Source: Microvirga solisilvae
GTDB lineage: Bacteria; Pseudomonadota; Alphaproteobacteria; Rhizobiales; Beijerinckiaceae
NCBI RefSeq assembly: GCF_022808595.1
Contig: NZ_JAKUCN010000006.1
Location: forward strand, 124,001 to 188,000
Direction: 5' to 3'
DNA: 64,000 nt
A program made the position numbers and the translations under genes. Of the stretch, positions 9,792 through 46,351 are shown one piece after another. Position 1 is the stretch's first letter, and each line of letters starts with the position of its first letter. The notes beneath the pieces were generated by a model, which was not told the DNA's origin, ran no database searches, and saw nothing but the letters and a program-made list of their open reading frames with translations.

Positions 9792-12700
9792 TTACTCGAA
9801 GCGACCGCTCGCATGGGCCAGCATGGTGTAGACCTTGCCGGTTTCCGAGGTGAGGTAGGTCTTCGTCAGCGTGGAGTCGCGGTCGTCACGGGAGACTTCC
9901 GAGAGCAGGCGCTCGAACTCGTCCACGTAGCGGTCGACTGTCTGACGGAACTCCTCGTCGCGACGATACTTGCGACGGATTTCCTCGAAGGTCTGCTGGC
10001 CCTGCGCTGTGTAGAGGCGACGGCTGAAGACGTTGCTCTCACCGCGGCGGTAACGCTCCCACAGGTCCACGGCCGCATCGTGATCGATCATGCGGGCGAT
10101 ATCGACCGAGATCGAGTCGAGCGAGTCGAGGCTGTTGGTGCGGCCACCACGGGCGGGAGCACGAACCGCTTCTTCTTCGTCATCACGCGAGGCGCGGGTC
10201 AGGAGGTCCGAGAGCCAGCCGCCACGAGCGCCACCGGCGTCACGGGCGGGAGCGGTCTCTTCGCGGCGCGGAGCGGCGCGCTCCACCGGAGCCGGAGCCT
10301 GACGGACAGGCGCAGGAGCCGGAGCGGGAGCCGGACGCGGCTCGGGCTGACGGGCAACCACAGGGGCCGGAGCCGGGGCAGGGGACGCGATGCGCTGCTC
10401 GACGGCGGCGGCAACGGCGGCCATGGTCGCGGCGACCGGGGTCTCGTTCACCGCAGCGCGGCGGGGCTGAGCGGCGGGGGCCGCATCGACCACGCGGTTG
10501 GAGCGCGAGACCAGAGCGGAAAGCTCGTTGAGAGCCTTGATCTGGTCGGCGACCACACGGCGCATGTTGGCCGTGGTCTCCTGCGTTTCCTGCGGCAGCT
10601 CGACGACACCGCGGCGGAGTTCGGCGCGGGTCGTTTCCAGCTCGCGCTGGATTTGGCCGGTCATGCCGCGCAGTTCGCCCATGGTGTCACGGAACTTCGC
10701 GGTGGCGCTGCTGAGCGCTTCCGCCATTTCAGCGGCAGCCTGCTCGTAGGTCGAGCGGAGGGCAGCGGCGGTGCGCTCGCTTTCCACGCTGGTAGTGGCG
10801 CGGATGCGCTCGAACTGCTCGCCGACCGCATGCGTGGTCGTCTCGGCGGCGCCGGCAAGGACGGAGCCGATCTGACGCGCCTTGTTCTCGGCGCTCTGGA
10901 GCGAGCCTTCCACGAGGGTGGTGAAGGAGCGGGTGACGGATTCGAGATCCTGCGAGCGCTCCTCGATGCGGCCGAGGAGTTCGTCCAGGGCGCTCTGGCG
11001 GCTGGCCAGGGCCTCGGTCATGCGGCTCTCGACACGCTCCAGGGCGGAGGCCGCCTGGGTGAGGGTGTTGATCTGCTCGTAGGTGGTCTCGGTCAGGCCG
11101 CGAGCGCGGTCTTCCAGGGTGTGAGCGAGGTCCATGGCCTGCTGGATCGCGCCCGAAGAGACGCTGCGTAGGGCATCGACCTGATCGGCCACCTGATCGG
11201 AAGCGCGGTTGGCCTGTGCGGCGATCTCCGACAGAAGCGTCTCGATCTGCTGCACGCGGCCGCCCAGGCCGTCCTCGACGGCGCCCAGGTTGTTGCCGGC
11301 GGAGGCCGCCACCTGCTGCAGGGTGCGGCTGGCATCCTGCAGGCGGCCGAGCACGTCGGCGAATTCGCCACGCAGACGCTCGTTGGTGCCGAGCAGGGTC
11401 TCGACCGTGCGCTCCGTGCCGGCGTCGATGGCGACGCGCATGGCTTCCGTCGACTGCATGTAGGAGGAGGTGAGCTCCATCGTGCGGTCCTGAAGCGAGG
11501 ACAGCATGGTCTGGCTGCGCTCCTCGAGGGCACGCAGGGTGCTCTCGGTGATGGTCTCGACTTCGCGGCCGATCACTTCGCTACGGTTGCCGAGCGTCTC
11601 GATGAGCGAGTTGCCCTGCGTGTCGAAGATCGAGCGGATCTCGCCGATGCGGCTGTTGAGCGAGGAAACGACGGCCGAGCCGCGCTCGTCGATGGCTTCC
11701 ACGACACCGCCGAGGCGGTTGACCACGCGATCCTCGAACTGGGTCACGCGCTGATCGAGCGTGGAGGCCAGCTCTTCCGTGCGGTTGCCGAGGGTCGAGG
11801 CGATCGCGTCCACATGGCCGCCGAGAGTCTGGTTGATCTCGAAGGCGCGGGCGCCGAGCGTCTCGGCGATCTCGTCGGCGCGGTCGCCGAGGATCTGGTT
11901 GATCGTGTTGATGCGGTTCTCCAGCGTCTCGGTGATCTCGCCGGCGCGGGTGCCGAGGATTTCGTTGATGCTGGTGGCGCGGGAATCCAGCGCTTCGCTG
12001 ATCTGCTCCGCCTTGGAGGAGAGGGTGTCTGCGATGGTGCTGGTCTTGGCGGTGATCGCCTGGCTGATCTCGTCCACGCGGGCCTGAAGGGCGCTGGCCA
12101 CGTCGCGGCCGCCTTCGGCCATCACGCGGGCCATCTCACCGGTGCGCACGACGAGCGCCTCGTTGAGGGCCGTGGAGCGGGCGCTGAGAACGCCGTCCAC
12201 GCGCTCGACGATGGTGTCGAAGTTCGCGGTGATCTCGGTGGTGCGACGCGTGGCGTGCTCCTCGAGCGCGGTGAGCTGGGTCTCGATGGCGGAGGTGGCT
12301 TCGCGAGCACGCTCGGCGAAGGCTTCCGACATGGTGCGGCCCTGCACGGTGATGAGACGGTCCATCTCCTCGAAGCGGCCGCTGATCGTTTCCGTCAGGC
12401 TGCCCACCTCGGTGGAGATGCGGTCGGCGAGTTCGCCGCCACGGCCCATGACGCCCTCGAAGGCTTCGAGGCGCGAGCCGAGAGTCTCTTCCATCTCGCG
12501 GGTGCGGGTGTCGACGGTGGTGGTGAGCGTCTCTGCCGTGCGGTTGAGAACTTCGTTGACGCGCGCGCCCTGGGTGGCGATGGCGAGAACGATATCCTTG
12601 CCGGTGCCGGCGAGGCGGGTCTGGGTTTCGTCCGCGTGACGGGTGAGCGTCTCGGAGAAGTCCTCGATCTTGGAGCCCATGAGGTAGGACAGGCGCTCGC

Positions 12701-14474
12701 CGACCTGCGACAGGTTGCTTTCGAGAGCCTGGCCCTGAACCGTGACGGTCTCGCTGACGCGCTGGCTGGCGGTTTCGAGGCGGATGGCGAGATCCTCGAC
12801 GCGGCTGCCGATGGATTCATCGGCCATGCGCACGGCGCCTTCGAGATGCTCGCGCACTTCGTTGCCGCGAACGGTGATCTGGCTGCCCACTTCGGAAGCC
12901 GTCATGGCGAGGTGCTCGCGGAACTCGTTGCCGCGAGTGATGATGTCGTTGACCACATCCGAGCCGGTGGTGGCGAGCTGCTCGCGCAGGGCCGTGCCAC
13001 GGTTCATGAGCTCTTCGCTCACGGAGAGGCCGGCCGAAGCGATCTGGTCGCGCATCTCGGCGGTGCGGGCGGAAATGTCGTCGGCAATGACGCCGCCGGT
13101 GGCCGCGAGCTTCTCGGTGATTTCGCTGCCGCGCAGGGCGAAGCTTTCTTCCAGGCTCTTGGCGGTCTGCTCGAAGGCTTCGCGCACGTCGCTGCCCTGC
13201 TGGGCGAGGGCGTCGATGACGCCGCGGCCGGTTTCGGCCAGCGTGCGGGTGACCTGGCTTGCGCCTTCCTGCAGGTGGCGGGTGAGAACGTCGCCGGTGC
13301 GCTCGAAGGCGCCCGTGATGTCCTGCGCCTTGCTTTCGAGCGCGGTGGTGATCGTGGTGCCCACATCGGCGATGCCGGACTTGATGTCCTCGCTGGCGCC
13401 CGAGAGACGCTCCACGAGTTCGACGCCACGGCTTGCCATCTCTTCGACGACACGCTCGCCGGCGCGGCCGAGCGCCTGGGTGATCTGGTCGCCCTGGTTC
13501 TCGAGGGAGCCGGTGACCTTGTCGCCTGCGCTGCCGACGGCGGTGACGACGCGCTCGCTGGCGACGTCGAGGTCCGCGATCAGGTTCTGGTGAGCACCGG
13601 TGATGGCGCCGCGCACGCGCTCCGAATTGGAAACGATCGCCTCACGCTGGGCGATGAGCTCGTCGATGAGGGAGCGGATGCGGATTTCGTTGTCGGAATA
13701 GGCGCGCTCGAGTGTGGAGATCTCGCTGCGCACGAGGGTTTCCAGCTCGCCGGCACGGGCCAGCGCGCGTTCCACACCATCGCCCACGGCAGCCACTTCG
13801 CGGCGAACGGCCTGGGAGACGGAGAGAACGGCGTCGGTCGAGAAGTTCTCGGGCTGAGCCAGACGCACGGCCACTTCGCCGACGGCGCGGGCCACCATCT
13901 TCATCTCGGCCGAGCGGACGGTCAGCATCGCGGCGATGAAGAACAGGAAGAGCGGTGCGACAGTTGCAAGAGCGCCGAGGGCAAGCTGCGAGGTCGAGAA
14001 GGTGGCCAGCAGCTGCTGGGGCTCAACGATGCCCTGCGAATACAGGAAATAGCCGATGCCGCCGAGCCAGAGCAGGGAGGCGAGGGTGGCGAACACATAG
14101 GAGCGGCGCGAGGGGCGAACCTGGAGAGCCTGCAGCATCACGCCGATATTCTGGCGGTCGTCGTTGGCGACGGTATTGCGATCGGGCGCGACGAAGCCGG
14201 AGCGGGGCGCATCGTCCAGCTTGATGTCGCGATCGAGGTCACGCTCGTCCAAACGATCGTCGCGGCGATCGGGAAGCTCGGGGTTCAGGGCGAAGGGGCC
14301 CTTCGTGAAATCATGGTCGTCGATGTCCGGAAGCCGGGGCTCGTCGGAAGAAAGCCGGCTCTCCGTCTGATCCGGAGAGGGGATCTCGAACGTCTCATCA
14401 AGGTTGAGCGCCTGCTCGACAGCCGAAAGGGCTGCCTCCGCCGGGTCTTTAATCTTCTTCTTCTCGGTCGCCAT
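9792..14474 (-). CDS. Giant membrane-anchored hendecad-repeat (apolipoprotein/kinesin-like annotated) protein
   Basis: This protein has 1560 residues from the ATG at 14474, supported by GAGG about 7 nt upstream (reading upstream would add 45 residues without support). Residues 1-120 are acidic and probably disordered. Two membrane helices follow at about 126-145 and 163-184, forming a hairpin that would leave both ends cytoplasmic. Residues 281-1049 are about 70 tandem 11-residue repeats with a small/polar-rich consensus and an aliphatic residue closing each unit. More coiled coil, a Pro/Ala-rich linker (about 1370-1440) and a distinct tail (ISVDIARMIDHDAAVDLWER to the C-terminus) follow. Similar rhizobial proteins are often labelled kinesin-like or apolipoprotein-like, but no motor domain is present. 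The function is unknown; a cytoplasmic rod tethered to the inner membrane is an inference. Confidence 0.85.
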   Translation of the reverse strand: MATEKKKIKDPAEAALSAVEQALNLDETFEIPSPDQTESRLSSDEPRLPDIDDHDFTKGPFALNPELPDRRDDRLDERDLDRDIKLDDAPRSGFVAPDRNTVANDDRQNIGVMLQALQVRPSRRSYVFATLASLLWLGGIGYFLYSQGIVEPQQLLATFSTSQLALGALATVAPLFLFFIAAMLTVRSAEMKMVARAVGEVAVRLAQPENFSTDAVLSVSQAVRREVAAVGDGVERALARAGELETLVRSEISTLERAYSDNEIRIRSLIDELIAQREAIVSNSERVRGAITGAHQNLIADLDVASERVVTAVGSAGDKVTGSLENQGDQITQALGRAGERVVEEMASRGVELVERLSGASEDIKSGIADVGTTITTALESKAQDITGAFERTGDVLTRHLQEGASQVTRTLAETGRGVIDALAQQGSDVREAFEQTAKSLEESFALRGSEITEKLAATGGVIADDISARTAEMRDQIASAGLSVSEELMNRGTALREQLATTGSDVVNDIITRGNEFREHLAMTASEVGSQITVRGNEVREHLEGAVRMADESIGSRVEDLAIRLETASQRVSETVTVQGQALESNLSQVGERLSYLMGSKIEDFSETLTRHADETQTRLAGTGKDIVLAIATQGARVNEVLNRTAETLTTTVDTRTREMEETLGSRLEAFEGVMGRGGELADRISTEVGSLTETISGRFEEMDRLITVQGRTMSEAFAERAREATSAIETQLTALEEHATRRTTEITANFDTIVERVDGVLSARSTALNEALVVRTGEMARVMAEGGRDVASALQARVDEISQAITAKTSTIADTLSSKAEQISEALDSRATSINEILGTRAGEITETLENRINTINQILGDRADEIAETLGARAFEINQTLGGHVDAIASTLGNRTEELASTLDQRVTQFEDRVVNRLGGVVEAIDERGSAVVSSLNSRIGEIRSIFDTQGNSLIETLGNRSEVIGREVETITESTLRALEERSQTMLSSLQDRTMELTSSYMQSTEAMRVAIDAGTERTVETLLGTNERLRGEFADVLGRLQDASRTLQQVAASAGNNLGAVEDGLGGRVQQIETLLSEIAAQANRASDQVADQVDALRSVSSGAIQQAMDLAHTLEDRARGLTETTYEQINTLTQAASALERVESRMTEALASRQSALDELLGRIEERSQDLESVTRSFTTLVEGSLQSAENKARQIGSVLAGAAETTTHAVGEQFERIRATTSVESERTAAALRSTYEQAAAEMAEALSSATAKFRDTMGELRGMTGQIQRELETTRAELRRGVVELPQETQETTANMRRVVADQIKALNELSALVSRSNRVVDAAPAAQPRRAAVNETPVAATMAAVAAAVEQRIASPAPAPAPVVARQPEPRPAPAPAPAPVRQAPAPVERAAPRREETAPARDAGGARGGWLSDLLTRASRDDEEEAVRAPARGGRTNSLDSLDSISVDIARMIDHDAAVDLWERYRRGESNVFSRRLYTAQGQQTFEEIRRKYRRDEEFRQTVDRYVDEFERLLSEVSRDDRDSTLTKTYLTSETGKVYTMLAHASGRFE
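11328..13634 (-). repeat. Tandem hendecad (33-bp / 11-residue) coding repeat array
   Basis: Residues 281-1049 of the giant protein divide into 36 consecutive 11-mers (VSNSERVRGAI to GSRLEAFEGVM), one 10-mer (GRGGELADRI) and then 33 more 11-mers, each ending in an aliphatic or bulky hydrophobic residue. Typical units are ENQGDQITQAL, ASRGVELVERL and GDRADEIAETL. DNA units are diverged, so this is a protein-level repeat rather than a recent tandem expansion. Confidence 0.85.
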
Positions 14475-41856: not shown

Positions 41857-42321
41857 TCAATCGTGATCGGGATGCTGGCGGGATTTCATTTTCGCCAGCA
41901 GCTCGGGCGGATTGTCATCCTCGGTGCTGATGCCTGGGAGCGTGTGAAGCCGCTCGAAGGCGGGGAGCCTGCCTTCGGTGCCGTATTGGATTTCCGGATC
42001 GACTTTTTCGGGATGGTCCAGGCTGCCGATGGAGATGCAGATACGATCCGTCTCAAGAGCATTATAGGTCAGCGGCGTGCCGCAATCCCGGCAGAACCCG
42101 CGCTCGACCGCCTCTGAGCTCCTGAAACTTCCGGGCTTTCCTTTCGTCCAAACCAGATCCTTGCGCGGCACGCCCGTCAGCGCGGAAAAGTAGTTCCCGA
42201 AAGCCTTCTGGCACATGCGGCAATGGCAGATGCTCGTATGCGTCGGCTCCGACATCAGCGCATAGCGCACCGCGCCGCACTGGCAGCCGCCTGTCATGCT
42301 TGGGGATGATGCTTCTGACAT
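41857..42321 (-). CDS. GFA (glutathione-dependent formaldehyde-activating)-family protein, copy 1
   Basis: This 154-residue protein has the two zinc sites of the GFA/CENP-V fold: GGCQCGAVRYAL, CHCRMCQKAFGNYF, and GFCRDCGTPL. Members bind glutathione or small thiols, and many have no demonstrated enzymatic activity. AAAGGAG precedes the ATG. It is a tandem paralogue of the gene at 42375-42818, with long shared blocks and an identical C-terminal SRQHPDHD. Confidence 0.88.
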   Translation of the reverse strand: MSEASSPSMTGGCQCGAVRYALMSEPTHTSICHCRMCQKAFGNYFSALTGVPRKDLVWTKGKPGSFRSSEAVERGFCRDCGTPLTYNALETDRICISIGSLDHPEKVDPEIQYGTEGRLPAFERLHTLPGISTEDDNPPELLAKMKSRQHPDHD

Positions 42322-42374: not shown

Positions 42375-42818
42375 TCAATCGTGGTCCGGATGCTGACGAG
42401 ACTGGATTTCCTCTTCATCCGTGTCCACCACGGGAATGGTGTGAAGAACCTCAAAGTCAGGAACGCGCCTGTCGATGCTGAATTGCTTCTCGATCCTGAT
42501 TTGGGACGGATCATCGAGGCTGCCGATCGAGATACAGATGCGGTTCCATTTGGTGTTGCGGAACGACAAAGGCGTCCCGCAATCACGGCAGAAGCCGCGC
42601 TCAACATCATCCGAGCTGTTGAAGATTCCTGGCTCGCCGCGCGTCCACGCGAAGTCCTTCGGCTGCACGCCCGTGAATGCGGCAAAGAGATTCCCGAAAG
42701 CCTTCTGGCACATACGGCAGTGGCAGATATTCGCGCCCGTCGGCTGCGCATAAAGCGCATAGCGCACCGCGCCGCATTGGCATCCGCCGGTCATGATGGA
42801 TGGGCGTCGGTCCGACAT
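42375..42818 (-). CDS. GFA-family protein, copy 2
   Basis: This 147-residue paralogue of the neighbouring downstream gene has GGCQCGAVRYAL, CHCRMCQKAFGNLF and GFCRDCGTPLSF, and the same SRQHPDHD end. It lies 53 bp upstream of copy 1 on the same strand. Conservation is strong in the zinc-binding half and weaker after RICISIGSLD, indicating an older duplication with divergence in the C-terminal half. Confidence 0.88.
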   Translation of the reverse strand: MSDRRPSIMTGGCQCGAVRYALYAQPTGANICHCRMCQKAFGNLFAAFTGVQPKDFAWTRGEPGIFNSSDDVERGFCRDCGTPLSFRNTKWNRICISIGSLDDPSQIRIEKQFSIDRRVPDFEVLHTIPVVDTDEEEIQSRQHPDHD

Positions 42819-42874: not shown

Positions 42875-43726
42875 TTAGAAATCCACCGGCCCGCCTTCGC
42901 AGAATGCGAATGACTTCGGCATGAAGCCCTTGGGGCCGACATCGTGCTTGATCGGTTCGAGACGCTCCGTCTGCTGCGTTTTCTTTTGTGCAGATTTCGG
43001 AACGCCGGCAGGCCAGGAGGTCTCGTTCCAGGTGGCAGTCCAATCATGGAAATGGCTTGCCGGATTCAGTTCGAATTTCAGCGTGAGGTAGCCGCTGGTC
43101 TCGTCCTGGCAATGCGGCGAGGTCTTTTGCTCTTTCTCAGTGAAGCAGGCGCGCACCGTCTTGGTGCAGCTGAACGGCACGTTGTTGTAACGACGTTGAT
43201 CCTCAGTGACTTCCGTCATCTCGGGATCGAGCGTGACGAAATCGGCAATGACGAATTCAGCGCCGCCGCCCGAATACCCTTCCCGAATGCGGTTGAGCAC
43301 GGCGACGGCCCAGAGGCCGGAGCCCGTGGGATAGAGGGCAGGGTGGATGTCGACCATCCTCACCTCGGAACCGTCTTCCGATGCCGGCAGCGGATATTTC
43401 TCGAAGCTCCAGCGGTTCAGTACCTGCCATTGGCCTGGGGCTTTCATCGCAAGACGGGAAATCGTCCGGTTCACCATCACGGCATAGTATTCGCTGCCCG
43501 TCTCCGTCTTGCGCTCATAGAGCTTCGGCTCCTCCACCTTGTTGCACTCGAGGCCGGGGAGGTTGCACATGCCCATGATCCAGTTGGGATCGAGCTTGTC
43601 GAGATCCTTGATCTCGCGCAGGCGGACGGCCTGGAGCGGGGATTGGGCTTGAGTACTGCCCGCGTTTAGCAAGGCACTGGCAACGAGCGCTAGGGACAGG
43701 TGCTTCAATACGGAAATGGTCTTCAT
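42875..43726 (-). CDS. Secreted hypothetical protein
   Basis: This protein has 283 residues from ATG 43726, with GAGG about 7 nt upstream; the longer frame to 43840 runs through a terminator and is rejected. Signal peptide: MKTISVLKHLSLALVASALL, then NAGSTQAQS. The mature part has several cysteines (MCNLPGLECNK, SCTKTVRACF, HCQDE, FCEGGP) suggesting disulfides, and no recognised domain. It is probably periplasmic or exported. There is no clear functional link to the GFA genes downstream. Confidence 0.72.
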   Translation of the reverse strand: MKTISVLKHLSLALVASALLNAGSTQAQSPLQAVRLREIKDLDKLDPNWIMGMCNLPGLECNKVEEPKLYERKTETGSEYYAVMVNRTISRLAMKAPGQWQVLNRWSFEKYPLPASEDGSEVRMVDIHPALYPTGSGLWAVAVLNRIREGYSGGGAEFVIADFVTLDPEMTEVTEDQRRYNNVPFSCTKTVRACFTEKEQKTSPHCQDETSGYLTLKFELNPASHFHDWTATWNETSWPAGVPKSAQKKTQQTERLEPIKHDVGPKGFMPKSFAFCEGGPVDF

Positions 43727-43761: not shown

Positions 43762-43793
43762 AAAAATGGCCGGGACAAGCCCGGCCATTTTTT
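43762..43793 (-). terminator. Terminator downstream of the ParA-like gene
   Basis: The stem AAAATGGCCGGG / CCCGGCCATTTT with loop ACAAG gives a T-run on both strands. It lies 64 bp past the ParA-like stop on the minus strand and just upstream of the secreted hypothetical gene. Confidence 0.85.
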
Positions 43794-43856
43794 GCGCTAG
43801 GACGAAATACTGCGTAAACAGTAACATATATTATATTCAATATGAACTAAATATAA

Positions 43857-44897
43857 TTAGAGAATATCGGTCAAATATTCAAGTTCTCTCTTGTATTTGA
43901 CTTGTGATTTATTGACTTGAAGTCTCTTCCCGTCGACGGTTTTGAAGCTGCCAACCTGAAGCATCGGAATTGGAATCGATTGAGCGCCGCTGATACGGCC
44001 TGCTGACATAAAGTCATCCGTAATAGCAAAAGCATCAGCGGGATCATCGTAATCGAAGAGCTGCGGATATTTCGTCGCTACTTTGTAGGCACGTTCGACG
44101 TACATGCGTGAAGCAAGATCTTTTACGCCTTTCTTTGGACTTCGTGCGCCTACCATGGTCATTACAATGGCTGCTACTTTCGGAGATGGTAATCCTCCAG
44201 CGCGATCTGCCCAGATGTTGAAGTCGCTATCTTTGTCGGCAAGCATCTTCAATGTTAATTCGAGCGAATCGATTGAGTGCTCATCGACGCGAACAGGTAT
44301 GATAATTGCATCTGATGCACACCAGGCCAGATGAGTGGCTCCAGCATAAAATGGACTGCAATCCATTAAGCACGCTGCGCACGATTTATCTTCCATCTCA
44401 TCTTCGATAATTTCGCCGAGACTAAGCAAAATATTCTTCACTGCATTAGTATTGTTTGCAGCCATCGCTTGCTGCAGTTGCTGATAGAGAGAAGAAGGGA
44501 AAGAGAATAAAGCGCCATCGCCGGGGACAAAGTAGCTTCGTTTTCCTCCTTTAAAGTGCTCATTCAGCCCGCTAATCCGATAAGCAATATCGTCAGGTAC
44601 TACCCCAAAAGCTGGTCCAAGGACTTTTGGACGGATGGCATCGGCAATGGTTATAGCATGTTTTTGACCTCTAACTATTGACTCAGTAAGATTTCTTTGC
44701 GGGCATAGATCAAGTATAAGCGTGTTCTCCATTCTAGAGAACATATAAGCTAAGTTAAAAGATATAGTTGATTTTCCTATGCCACCACGAAGATTTGAAA
44801 TGGCATAGCGTGAATAACGGAAACCGGAAGACGGCGCCCAATCTTCTTCAAGTGAACGATCATGATTTTGAATAATACGTAAAAGACCTGTCGACAT
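43857..44897 (-). CDS. Orphan ParA-like AAA ATPase in low-GC DNA
   Basis: This protein has 346 residues from ATG 44897, with GGAG about 8 nt upstream; TTG 44909 is the alternative. It has a deviant Walker A-type loop RGGIGKST (37-44) in which the usual signature lysine of the ParA loop is Arg. Switch-I-like LILDLCPQRNLTES follows, then Walker B/switch II CLMDCSPFYAG with CASDAIIIPV. This is the ParA/MinD fold used for plasmid or cargo positioning. No parB gene is adjacent. Upstream lies a five-copy 19-bp repeat array overlapping the promoter. The coding DNA is strikingly A/T-rich relative to its surroundings. Confidence 0.8.
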   Translation of the reverse strand: MSTGLLRIIQNHDRSLEEDWAPSSGFRYSRYAISNLRGGIGKSTISFNLAYMFSRMENTLILDLCPQRNLTESIVRGQKHAITIADAIRPKVLGPAFGVVPDDIAYRISGLNEHFKGGKRSYFVPGDGALFSFPSSLYQQLQQAMAANNTNAVKNILLSLGEIIEDEMEDKSCAACLMDCSPFYAGATHLAWCASDAIIIPVRVDEHSIDSLELTLKMLADKDSDFNIWADRAGGLPSPKVAAIVMTMVGARSPKKGVKDLASRMYVERAYKVATKYPQLFDYDDPADAFAITDDFMSAGRISGAQSIPIPMLQVGSFKTVDGKRLQVNKSQVKYKRELEYLTDIL

Positions 44898-44920
44898 GCT
44901 AATCTCCAATCTGATGAGAC

Positions 44921-44949
44921 ATTAGAACGTGACCGAGCCTGCAGGTCAA
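44921..44949 (-). promoter_or_regulatory. Sigma-70-like promoter of the ParA-like gene
   Basis: On the minus strand, TTGACC (44949-44944) and TCTAAT (44926-44921) are separated by exactly 17 bp. The distal repeat core TGCAGG (44940-44945) overlaps the -35 element. The expected transcript would start about 15-20 nt before the ATG, containing the GGAG ribosome-binding site. Confidence 0.6.
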
Positions 44950-45034
44950 GCCGTAGCGCGCAGGTTATTAACAGATGTGCAGTTTATATAAATTGGTGCA
45001 GGCATAACGATAATATGCAGGCTGTTTTATAACC
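44940..45034. repeat. Five 19-bp direct repeats (iteron/operator-like array)
   Basis: The core (T/C)GCAG(G/T) occurs at 44940, 44959, 44978, 44997 and 45016, that is, five copies with intervals of exactly 19, 19, 19 and 19 bp. Outside the hexamer the units are A/T-rich and poorly conserved. The array begins over the -35 element of the ParA-like gene and extends about 90 bp upstream. It resembles plasmid iterons or a cooperative operator; the binding protein is not known. Confidence 0.75.
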
Positions 45035-45082
45035 TATTGTATTTTATAGGTTTTTATCTAAATTTTACCTTTTTGCGTAATA

Positions 45083-45111
45083 AAAAAAGCCCGGTATTTG
45101 CCCGGGCTTTT
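45083..45111 (-). terminator. Terminator of icd
   Basis: The stem AAAGCCCGG / CCGGGCTTT with loop TATTTGC gives a seven-T run on the minus strand. It lies 26 bp after the icd stop. Confidence 0.88.
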
Positions 45112-45136
45112 ATCTCCAAGAGGATGAATCTTTCGA

Positions 45137-46351
45137 TTAAGCAGCCATCGCCTTCTTGAGGTTCTCGTCAATCTTGTCGAGGAAGCCGGTGGTGGAGAGC
45201 CACTTCTGCTCGGCGCCGACGAGAAGGGCGAGGTCCTTCGTCATGAAGCCGGATTCCACCGTGTCCACGCAGACCTTCTCGAGGGTCGCGGCGAACTTGG
45301 CGAGATCGGCATTGTTGTCGAGCTTGGCGCGGTGGGCGAGGCCACGGGTCCAGGCGAAGATCGAGGCGATGGAGTTCGTGGAGGTCTCCTTGCCCTTCTG
45401 ATGCTCGCGGTAATGGCGGGTCACGGTGCCGTGGGCGGCTTCCGCTTCCACCGTCTGGCCGTCCGGCGTCATCAGCACGGAGGTCATGAGGCCGAGCGAG
45501 CCGAAGCCCTGGGCAACCGTGTCGGACTGCACGTCGCCGTCGTAGTTCTTACAGGCCCACACATAGCCGCCCGACCACTTGAGGGCCGAGGCCACCATGT
45601 CGTCGATGAGGCGGTGCTCGTAATGGATGCCGGCGGCATCGAACTTCGCCTTGAACTCGTTCTGGTAGACTTCCTCGAAGATGTCCTTGAAGCGGCCGTC
45701 ATAGGCCTTGAGGATCGTGTTCTTCGTGGAGAGATAGACCGGATACTTGCGGTTCAGGCCGTAGTTCATAGAGGCGCGGGCGAACTCGCGGATCGACTCG
45801 TCGAGATTGTACATGCCCATGGCGACGCCGGCGCCGGGGAACTTGAAGATTTCCTTCTCGATGACGGTGCCGTCCTCGCCCTCGAACTTGATCGTCATGC
45901 GGCCCTTGCCGGGCACCTTGAAGTCCGTGGCCTTGTACTGGTCGCCGAAGGCGTGACGGCCGACGATGATCGGCTGGGTCCAGCCGGGCACGAGGCGCGG
46001 AACGTTCTTGCAGATGATCGGCTCACGGAAGATCACGCCGCCGAGGATGTTGCGGATCGTGCCGTTGGGCGACTTCCACATGTCCTTCAGCTTGAACTCT
46101 TCCACACGGGCCTCGTCCGGCGTGATGGTGGCGCACTTCACGCCGACGCCGTACTTCTTGATGGCCTCTGCGGCTTCGACGGTGACCTTGTCGTTGGTGG
46201 CGTCGCGGTGCTCGATGCCGAGGTCGTAGTACTTCAGGTCGATGTCGAGATAGGGGTGGATCAGCTTGTCTTTGATGAACTGCCAAATGATGCGGGTCAT
46301 CTCGTCGCCGTCGAGTTCGACGACCGGATTGGCAACCTTGATCTTCGCCAT
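45137..46351 (-). CDS. icd: NADP-dependent isocitrate dehydrogenase
   Basis: This 404-residue dimeric NADP-IDH is of the eukaryote-like subfamily: [15 protein letters not shown]-terminus, isocitrate-phosphate loop SPNGTIRN, catalytic Tyr region GMYNLDESI, Lys in [11 protein letters not shown], metal ligands in [12 protein letters not shown] and [11 protein letters not shown], and [14 protein letters not shown] near the NADP site. It converts isocitrate to 2-oxoglutarate with NADPH in the TCA cycle. A good ribosome-binding site (AAGGTGAG) precedes the ATG. It lies downstream of alaS in the usual alphaproteobacterial neighbourhood, though several genes intervene. Confidence 0.97.

Follow-up and report, generated by a model that had tools for sequence, protein, structure and literature searches.

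Among described ParA systems, the operator of the F-plasmid ParA consists of direct hexamers that recur at a 19-base-pair (bp) step, with 13-bp intervals, across the gene's own promoter, and three ParA dimers bind it cooperatively (PMC8465637). ParI, an orphan ParA encoded on a genomic island of Pseudomonas putida, interferes with IncP-7 plasmids (PMC9178275). Our analysis concerns a 64,000-nucleotide stretch of Microvirga solisilvae (assembly GCF_022808595.1, contig NZ_JAKUCN010000006.1, positions 124,001 to 188,000 of the forward strand; hereafter the window), in which an array of five short repeats at a 19-bp step stands upstream of an orphan ParA-like gene. We propose that the array and the gene form a self-contained, phage-related cassette, in which a dimer of the ParA-like protein would bind the CCTGC sites cooperatively and shut its own promoter where the repeats overlap or abut it, an account whose chances we put at about even.

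The phased array and its conservation with the ParA-like gene

The array occupies positions 44940 to 45021 on the minus strand. On the gene's strand its units, listed from the distal to the gene-proximal one (45021-45016, 45002-44997, 44983-44978, 44964-44959 and 44945-44940), read CCTGCA, with one ACTGCA and one CCTGCG, at 19-bp steps; in plus-strand terms they start at 44940, 44959, 44978, 44997 and 45016 as TGCAGG, CGCAGG, TGCAGT, TGCAGG and TGCAGG (YGCAGK). Re-reading of the sequence bore out the preliminary description of five copies in exact 19-bp steps, as well as its limit of five, the hexamer not being continued in register on either flank. The lone hexamer is frequent in the window (91 occurrences on the plus strand and 92 on the minus strand), so it is the phasing that counts. 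A scan of the whole window for sets of five 6-mers with a common period between 8 and 60, and with at least 28 of 30 letters matching, gave four matches, namely this array (period 19) and three at period 33. When the 187-bp intergenic stretch was shuffled 2000 times with dinucleotides preserved, no shuffle equalled the array (five-by-six, periods 8-60; matches with fewer than three different letters were left uncounted), and the pattern CCTGC-N14-CCTGC-N15-CTGC occurs once in the genome, at the window array, with no occurrence of the reversed control. Since the spacers differ between units while the spacing is constant, the array has the appearance of a ruler of short sites rather than of a plain tandem duplication, and the 19-bp phasing is real. 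Tandem repeats with a 66-bp period also occur in the window, at 11787-12004 (with a 33-bp sub-period) and at 12842-12988.

Protein searches yielded five loci in genome contigs and, in viral contigs, 20 and then 48 loci with a 23-row alignment. The majority of the array-bearing ParA relatives come from viral contigs, and the hosts of those in genome contigs include Bordetella, Agrobacterium and Rhodomicrobium. At E 1e-10, two of 101 genomes (100 relatives plus the own genome) gave a match, the own genome and one more (34%, residues 168-337). At E 1e-40, 2 of 397 genomes of the order and 5 of 398 genomes of the phylum have a match, the own genome included in both counts, and four of these five are distant (211-237 bits versus 651). 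One genome of the same order (G134) has a ParA copy that matches the Rhodomicrobium locus, and no near match for two of the relatives was found in E. coli genomes. Between the window gene and the L009 copy, nonsynonymous divergence (dN) is 0.104 and synonymous change is saturated.

For the final count of arrays, one row was kept per distinct protein of at least 50% identity and alignments shorter than 300 residues were dropped, which leaves truncated copies such as L010, L030 and L185 outside it. A CTGC array with at least three steps of 9, 19, 28 or 38 bp stands directly upstream in 37 of the 38 rows, or 35 of 36 relatives if the window and L113 (a truncated second reading of the L175 record) are subtracted; the sole exception is L008, from Agrobacterium, with steps of 19, 38 and 18. 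The array is thus found upstream of close homologues, and homologues without phased repeats were unseen at this level of identity. All 35 non-redundant rows at 54% identity or more, window included, have CTGC motifs at 19-bp steps upstream, with ACGACCTGCAGATTTTTTA as the consensus unit in rows at 69% or more and AACTCCTGCACTTTTTTGT in rows at 54-59%. The upstream regions together contain 153 steps of 19 and 32 of 9, for which the figures per shuffle are 0.125 and 0.165, respectively, the steps not being independent events owing to the relatedness of the rows. In L177, L195 and L196 the sites are paired 9 bp apart and the pairs recur after 19, so that the ruler seems to be built of a 9-bp unit and a 10-bp gap. 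The L196 array has up to 12 CCTGC sites, and those of L187 and L203 are less regular than the others. In a maximum-likelihood tree, the array bearers make up one branch (39 rows, the window being counted twice; support 100/99), with the three chromosomal alphaproteobacterial copies as a sub-branch (support 99/97). Judged by this distribution, the array belongs to the neighbouring ParA gene and the two travel as one unit. In Bradyrhizobium sp. C9 a broken 3' piece of this ParA gene survives (L010:6001-6280), beside a gene that we take to encode a polysaccharide chain-length determinant.

More distant relatives at 37-45% identity (L197-L201 and L204) have other upstream elements in place of the CCTGC array. 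Inverted-repeat-like stretches were seen by eye in L198 and L200, two GCATGCCC copies spaced 18 bp in L201, and nothing clear upstream of L204, whose start codon is uncertain. Upstream of L197 (3809-3892) and L199 (971-1026), both at 43-45% identity, stand 28-bp direct repeats of a different motif (GATAGACA type), 28 being equal to 9 plus 19. At 33-37% identity (L033, L034 and L232-L235), an apparent inverted repeat, of AGTTTTCC ... GGAAAACT type in some members, was seen by eye around the promoter. No CCTGC array lies upstream of L232-L235, nor was one seen in any of five plasmid or phage relatives at 23-33% identity, four of which were covered by the repeat search.

Arrays were also searched for independently of ParA. 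A strict four-copy CCTGC pattern, which misses the window's own array because the third copy is short of one C, matched 1 of 398 Pseudomonadota genomes (G765, with no ParA match); its reversed control matched three times, all in one further genome, which points to a low background. A pattern scan of viral contigs returned at least 120 stretches; among the matches listed, 23 of 120 are followed closely by a ParA with 50% identity or more, many of them in records already found by the viral protein searches. Twelve of the other 97 listed stretches were read, of which ten are tandem repeats and two (L049 and L139) are genuine-looking arrays without ParA, and the remaining 85 were judged from the table only. 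A ParA search of the whole L049 and L139 records found none in either, an empty answer that proves little, as such records can be fragments. The CCTGC arrays in question, at 19-bp steps, lie at L139:1664-1782 (plus) and L049:2792-2872 (minus). The latter stands before a short open reading frame (ORF); about 120 bp from the former is a small, presumably HEPN-like gene, and about 2.5 kb beyond that gene lies one for a CI-like repressor.

The ParA-like protein as candidate binder of the array

The ParA-like gene (43857..44897, minus strand; ORF 43860-44897, stop to 43857, ATG at 44897) encodes 346 residues and has no second close copy in the genome. Its product matches the Pfam families AAA_31 (1.3e-13) and CbiA (6.8e-08), the P-loop and ParA fold, and the PHROG 164 'ParA-like partition protein' profile (E 4.4e-38). 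Strand, kinship and the fact that the ORF list shows neither ParB nor Rep next to the gene all agree with the orphan ParA-like gene named in the preliminary description. The Walker A motif is RGGIGKST, with R37 at the place of the deviant Walker A signature lysine, and this arginine is invariant in 23 of 23 aligned rows. A review table also gives arginine for BcsQ and serine for McdA at this place (PMC9178275), so Arg37 does not expel the protein from the ParA/MinD superfamily, to which its P-loop and fold assign it. The switch motif is DLCPQ (family form DxC[PA]Q), with C65 at the place of the switch aspartate, D44 of TtSoj. In Soj, the switch aspartate is required for ATPase activity, and the cysteine at its place suggests that ATP hydrolysis is impaired. 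About 27 residues precede the ATPase core, and the N-terminal winged helix-turn-helix (HTH) of type Ia ParA proteins was not found; model residues 27-346 align to ParA2 of V. cholerae from residue 109. By position only, the 318-327 hairpin and the 246-260 loop are candidates for the part of the protein that would contact the sites.

A putative promoter lies at 44921..44949 (minus strand), with TTGACC (44949-44944), a 17-bp spacer and TCTAAT (44926-44921), and its -35 hexamer overlaps the innermost, gene-proximal repeat. Overlap and spacing are as first described; the promoter itself is a by-eye reading, absent from a consensus scan that demands A at position 2 of the -10 element. Of 35 upstream regions read by eye, 18, that of the window among them, place a -35-like hexamer against or across a proximal repeat: TTGACG stands immediately before such a repeat in 12 of 25 rows at 69% identity or more, and TTGATC, 17 bp and TTAAAT or TTTAAT occur in 5 of 10 rows at 54-59%, in a placement akin to that of the window. 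Autorepression would be the simplest effect of such an arrangement, and the sequences suggest that the ParA gene represses itself via the array. Inverted partner sites, as in the F operator, showed no favoured offset among the 35 upstream regions.

We compared 29 neighbourhoods, taking ORFs of at least 60 residues from -3.5 to +4.5 kb where contig ends did not cut the span short, and found a single family, ParA, in all 29. A CI-like repressor is near ParA in 18, although for one of these (L196) the cluster contains HTH-type proteins only, and no other family occurs in more than four; the one CI-like member tested has Peptidase_S24 and HTH_3 domains. The adjacent parB and centromere of type Ia ParA systems were not seen in these neighbourhoods. 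Being the only family found throughout, ParA is the likeliest binder, and the motif points the same way, as the window type is common to two proteobacterial host classes while another ParA clade has another consensus. The ParA-like protein itself is thus the most probable binder of the array on present comparisons. The CI-like repressor was considered in this role and rejected, as it was not found in 11 of the 29 neighbourhoods, including those of the three solo chromosomal copies, and its members differ by eye in their N-terminal regions.

In the mechanism that we propose, the ParA-like protein would bind the CCTGC sites cooperatively as an ATP-bound dimer, and in regions such as that of the window, whose core promoter touches or overlaps proximal repeats, this would stop transcription of its own gene. 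The Cys switch and the Arg change would slow ATP turnover, and slow turnover would make of the protein a standing DNA-bound switch rather than a cycling partition motor. We infer each of these elements, ParA as binder, repression as effect and the slowing by Cys and Arg. The ATPase had been named at the outset as one possible binder, and by elimination among neighbours it is now the best-supported option. The cooperative-operator reading put forward there likewise fits the 18 promoter-repeat overlaps and, by analogy, the F-plasmid operator with its same step; the array has become a clade-wide conserved cis element, confirmed by comparison of sequences. The other reading offered, plasmid iterons, has been dropped, since there is no linked Rep gene and the cassette is a single-gene chromosomal insert. 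A partition origin fell with it, for want of Rep, ParB or plasmid context. What stood of the preliminary description as a whole is the phased array tied to an orphan ParA; it did not mention the Cys switch motif, the kinship with phages or the quantisation of the steps at 9 and 19 bp.

Several observations weigh against the proposed mechanism. The protein is without the N-terminal winged HTH that the F and P1 ParA proteins use on their operators, and the L049 and L139 arrays, with no ParA match, call for a different binder or for loss of the gene. By consensus the window promoter is a weak one, and 17 of the 35 upstream regions have no TTGAC or TTGAT -35-like hexamer at a proximal repeat (by eye). 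In the 54-59% clade the motif may have changed with the host, and a partner smaller than 60 residues could have been missed.

As to purpose, our first guess, drawn by analogy with ParI, is interference with incoming phages or plasmids, because in viral contigs a CI-like repressor is often close to the gene, and in chromosomes the gene has been kept by itself. A fuller form of this idea is an exclusion module, in which ParA would block other mobile elements while the array marks or controls the module itself, as a prophage exclusion gene might work. The 18 neighbourhoods with a CI-like repressor, the distant relatives that follow CI in phi297 (immediately) and in ST11-VIM1phi8.2 (with one small ORF between), the solo retention in chromosomes and the precedent of ParI (PMC9178275) favour it; a search with PADLOC 2.0.0, however, returned a single weak match (PDC-M28B, E 0.0072, residues 14-64), and we consider such a module possible but doubtful. 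It concerns purpose and is compatible with ParA binding its own operator.

The binder could also be a host-encoded regulator common to all the phage hosts, with ParA merely the regulated gene. This would account for a ParA protein that has no recognised sequence-specific DNA-binding domain, and for the two arrays without ParA, but it has to explain why alpha- and betaproteobacterial hosts share one type of motif while another ParA clade, whose hosts may also differ, has a different one, and with the four-copy pattern in 1 of 398 Pseudomonadota genomes, such arrays are not in common use by hosts elsewhere; we regard it as unlikely. Still less probable, in our view, is that the array is mainly centromere-like rather than an operator and serves a one-protein, ParB-less partition or anchoring system. 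Membership of the ParA family, the long arrays of up to 12 sites and the fact that array and ParA are the whole conserved unit speak for it, but -35-like hexamers meet the proximal repeat in about half of the regions (18 of 35), three copies are chromosomal, where partition is unneeded, and no ParB-like gene was seen. Chance, or the decay of an ordinary tandem repeat, has the commonness of the hexamer in its favour and next to no probability, being refuted by homologues that keep the array down to about 54% protein identity, by spacing that holds while spacers differ and by the shuffles.

The chromosomal insertion and its neighbours

The cassette lies in an AT-rich insert at 43792..45136 (minus strand), recognised by comparison with an empty site, with a right border that is uncertain, as an intrinsic-terminator-like hairpin (45085..45111, minus strand) between the right-hand neighbour and the array may be ancestral. 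The G+C content of 43857-45084 is 43%, versus 62% for the window. The right neighbour (45137..46351, minus strand) is an isocitrate dehydrogenase gene, presumably icd from its protein, and 21 of 26 genomes in the genus, counting this one, have homologues of it with E values of 1e-100 or lower. The left neighbour (42875..43726, minus strand) encodes 283 residues from its ATG and has no Pfam match at 0.01. In the empty site, found in a congeneric genome (G005, L215), the left-neighbour gene directly follows icd, and L215 matches window 43791-42507 at 82.8% identity, the match starting at the 28th base past the final icd codon. Comparison of 23 icd-downstream stretches other than the own one found no match to the cassette in any, two more loci being without downstream sequence. 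This comparison makes the window copy an insert of one gene in the chromosome. Like it, the L008 and L009 copies stand alone among chromosomal-looking genes (by eye, with the L008 and L009 neighbours taken from ORF translations). Two adjacent similar genes (MTGGCQCGAVRYAL...) at 41857-42321 and 42375-42818 (minus strand) form a tandem duplicate, and several relatives in the genus carry a similar gene near icd.

Comparison with known systems

No description of the array was found in the open-licence literature, as judged from listings, where an account inside a paper's full text is possible. If ParA reads the array, the locus would offer a minimal one-gene, one-array system for ParA assembly on specific DNA, and the Cys switch motif across the phage family would provide natural proteins with which to probe the need for the switch aspartate. 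Array and gene together may also serve as a precise marker for phage-related genes otherwise labelled partition proteins, as in PHROG 164. In a more speculative vein, and with considerable doubt, we can imagine that a phage ParA clade, without HTH or partner, turned a partition ATPase into a slow or ATP-locked sequence-specific protein on a 9/19-bp CCTGC ruler, a one-gene portable switch carried near the phage repressor and kept alone by some alphaproteobacteria.

The ParA-like proteins of phi297 and ST11-VIM1phi8.2, found by tblastn, share the position after a CI repressor and the DxCPQ motif, but they are 23-27% identical, have a KGG Walker A and have no CCTGC array. The Walker A given in the review that describes ParI is KGGVGKS (PMC9178275), versus RGG[IV]GKS[TS] here. 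Soj, McdA and other ParA proteins without an N-terminal HTH differ from the present protein by its R37 in place of the signature lysine and its C65 in place of the switch aspartate, and no partner gene was seen; relative to TtSoj, about 80 more residues lie in the aligned range (320 versus 238). Four features of the type Ia ParA system of the F plasmid (SopA) were not seen here: the winged HTH at the N terminus of ParA, ParB as its partner, a separate centromere and the inversion of the fourth hexamer. The F-plasmid and window systems are alike in combining a ParA-family ATPase with repeats at a 19-bp step in its own promoter region, a type Ia feature that the window sequence appears to share with its five repeats; if the ParA-like protein reads them, they would form a ParA operator whose reader has no winged HTH and whose step equals that of the F-plasmid operator.
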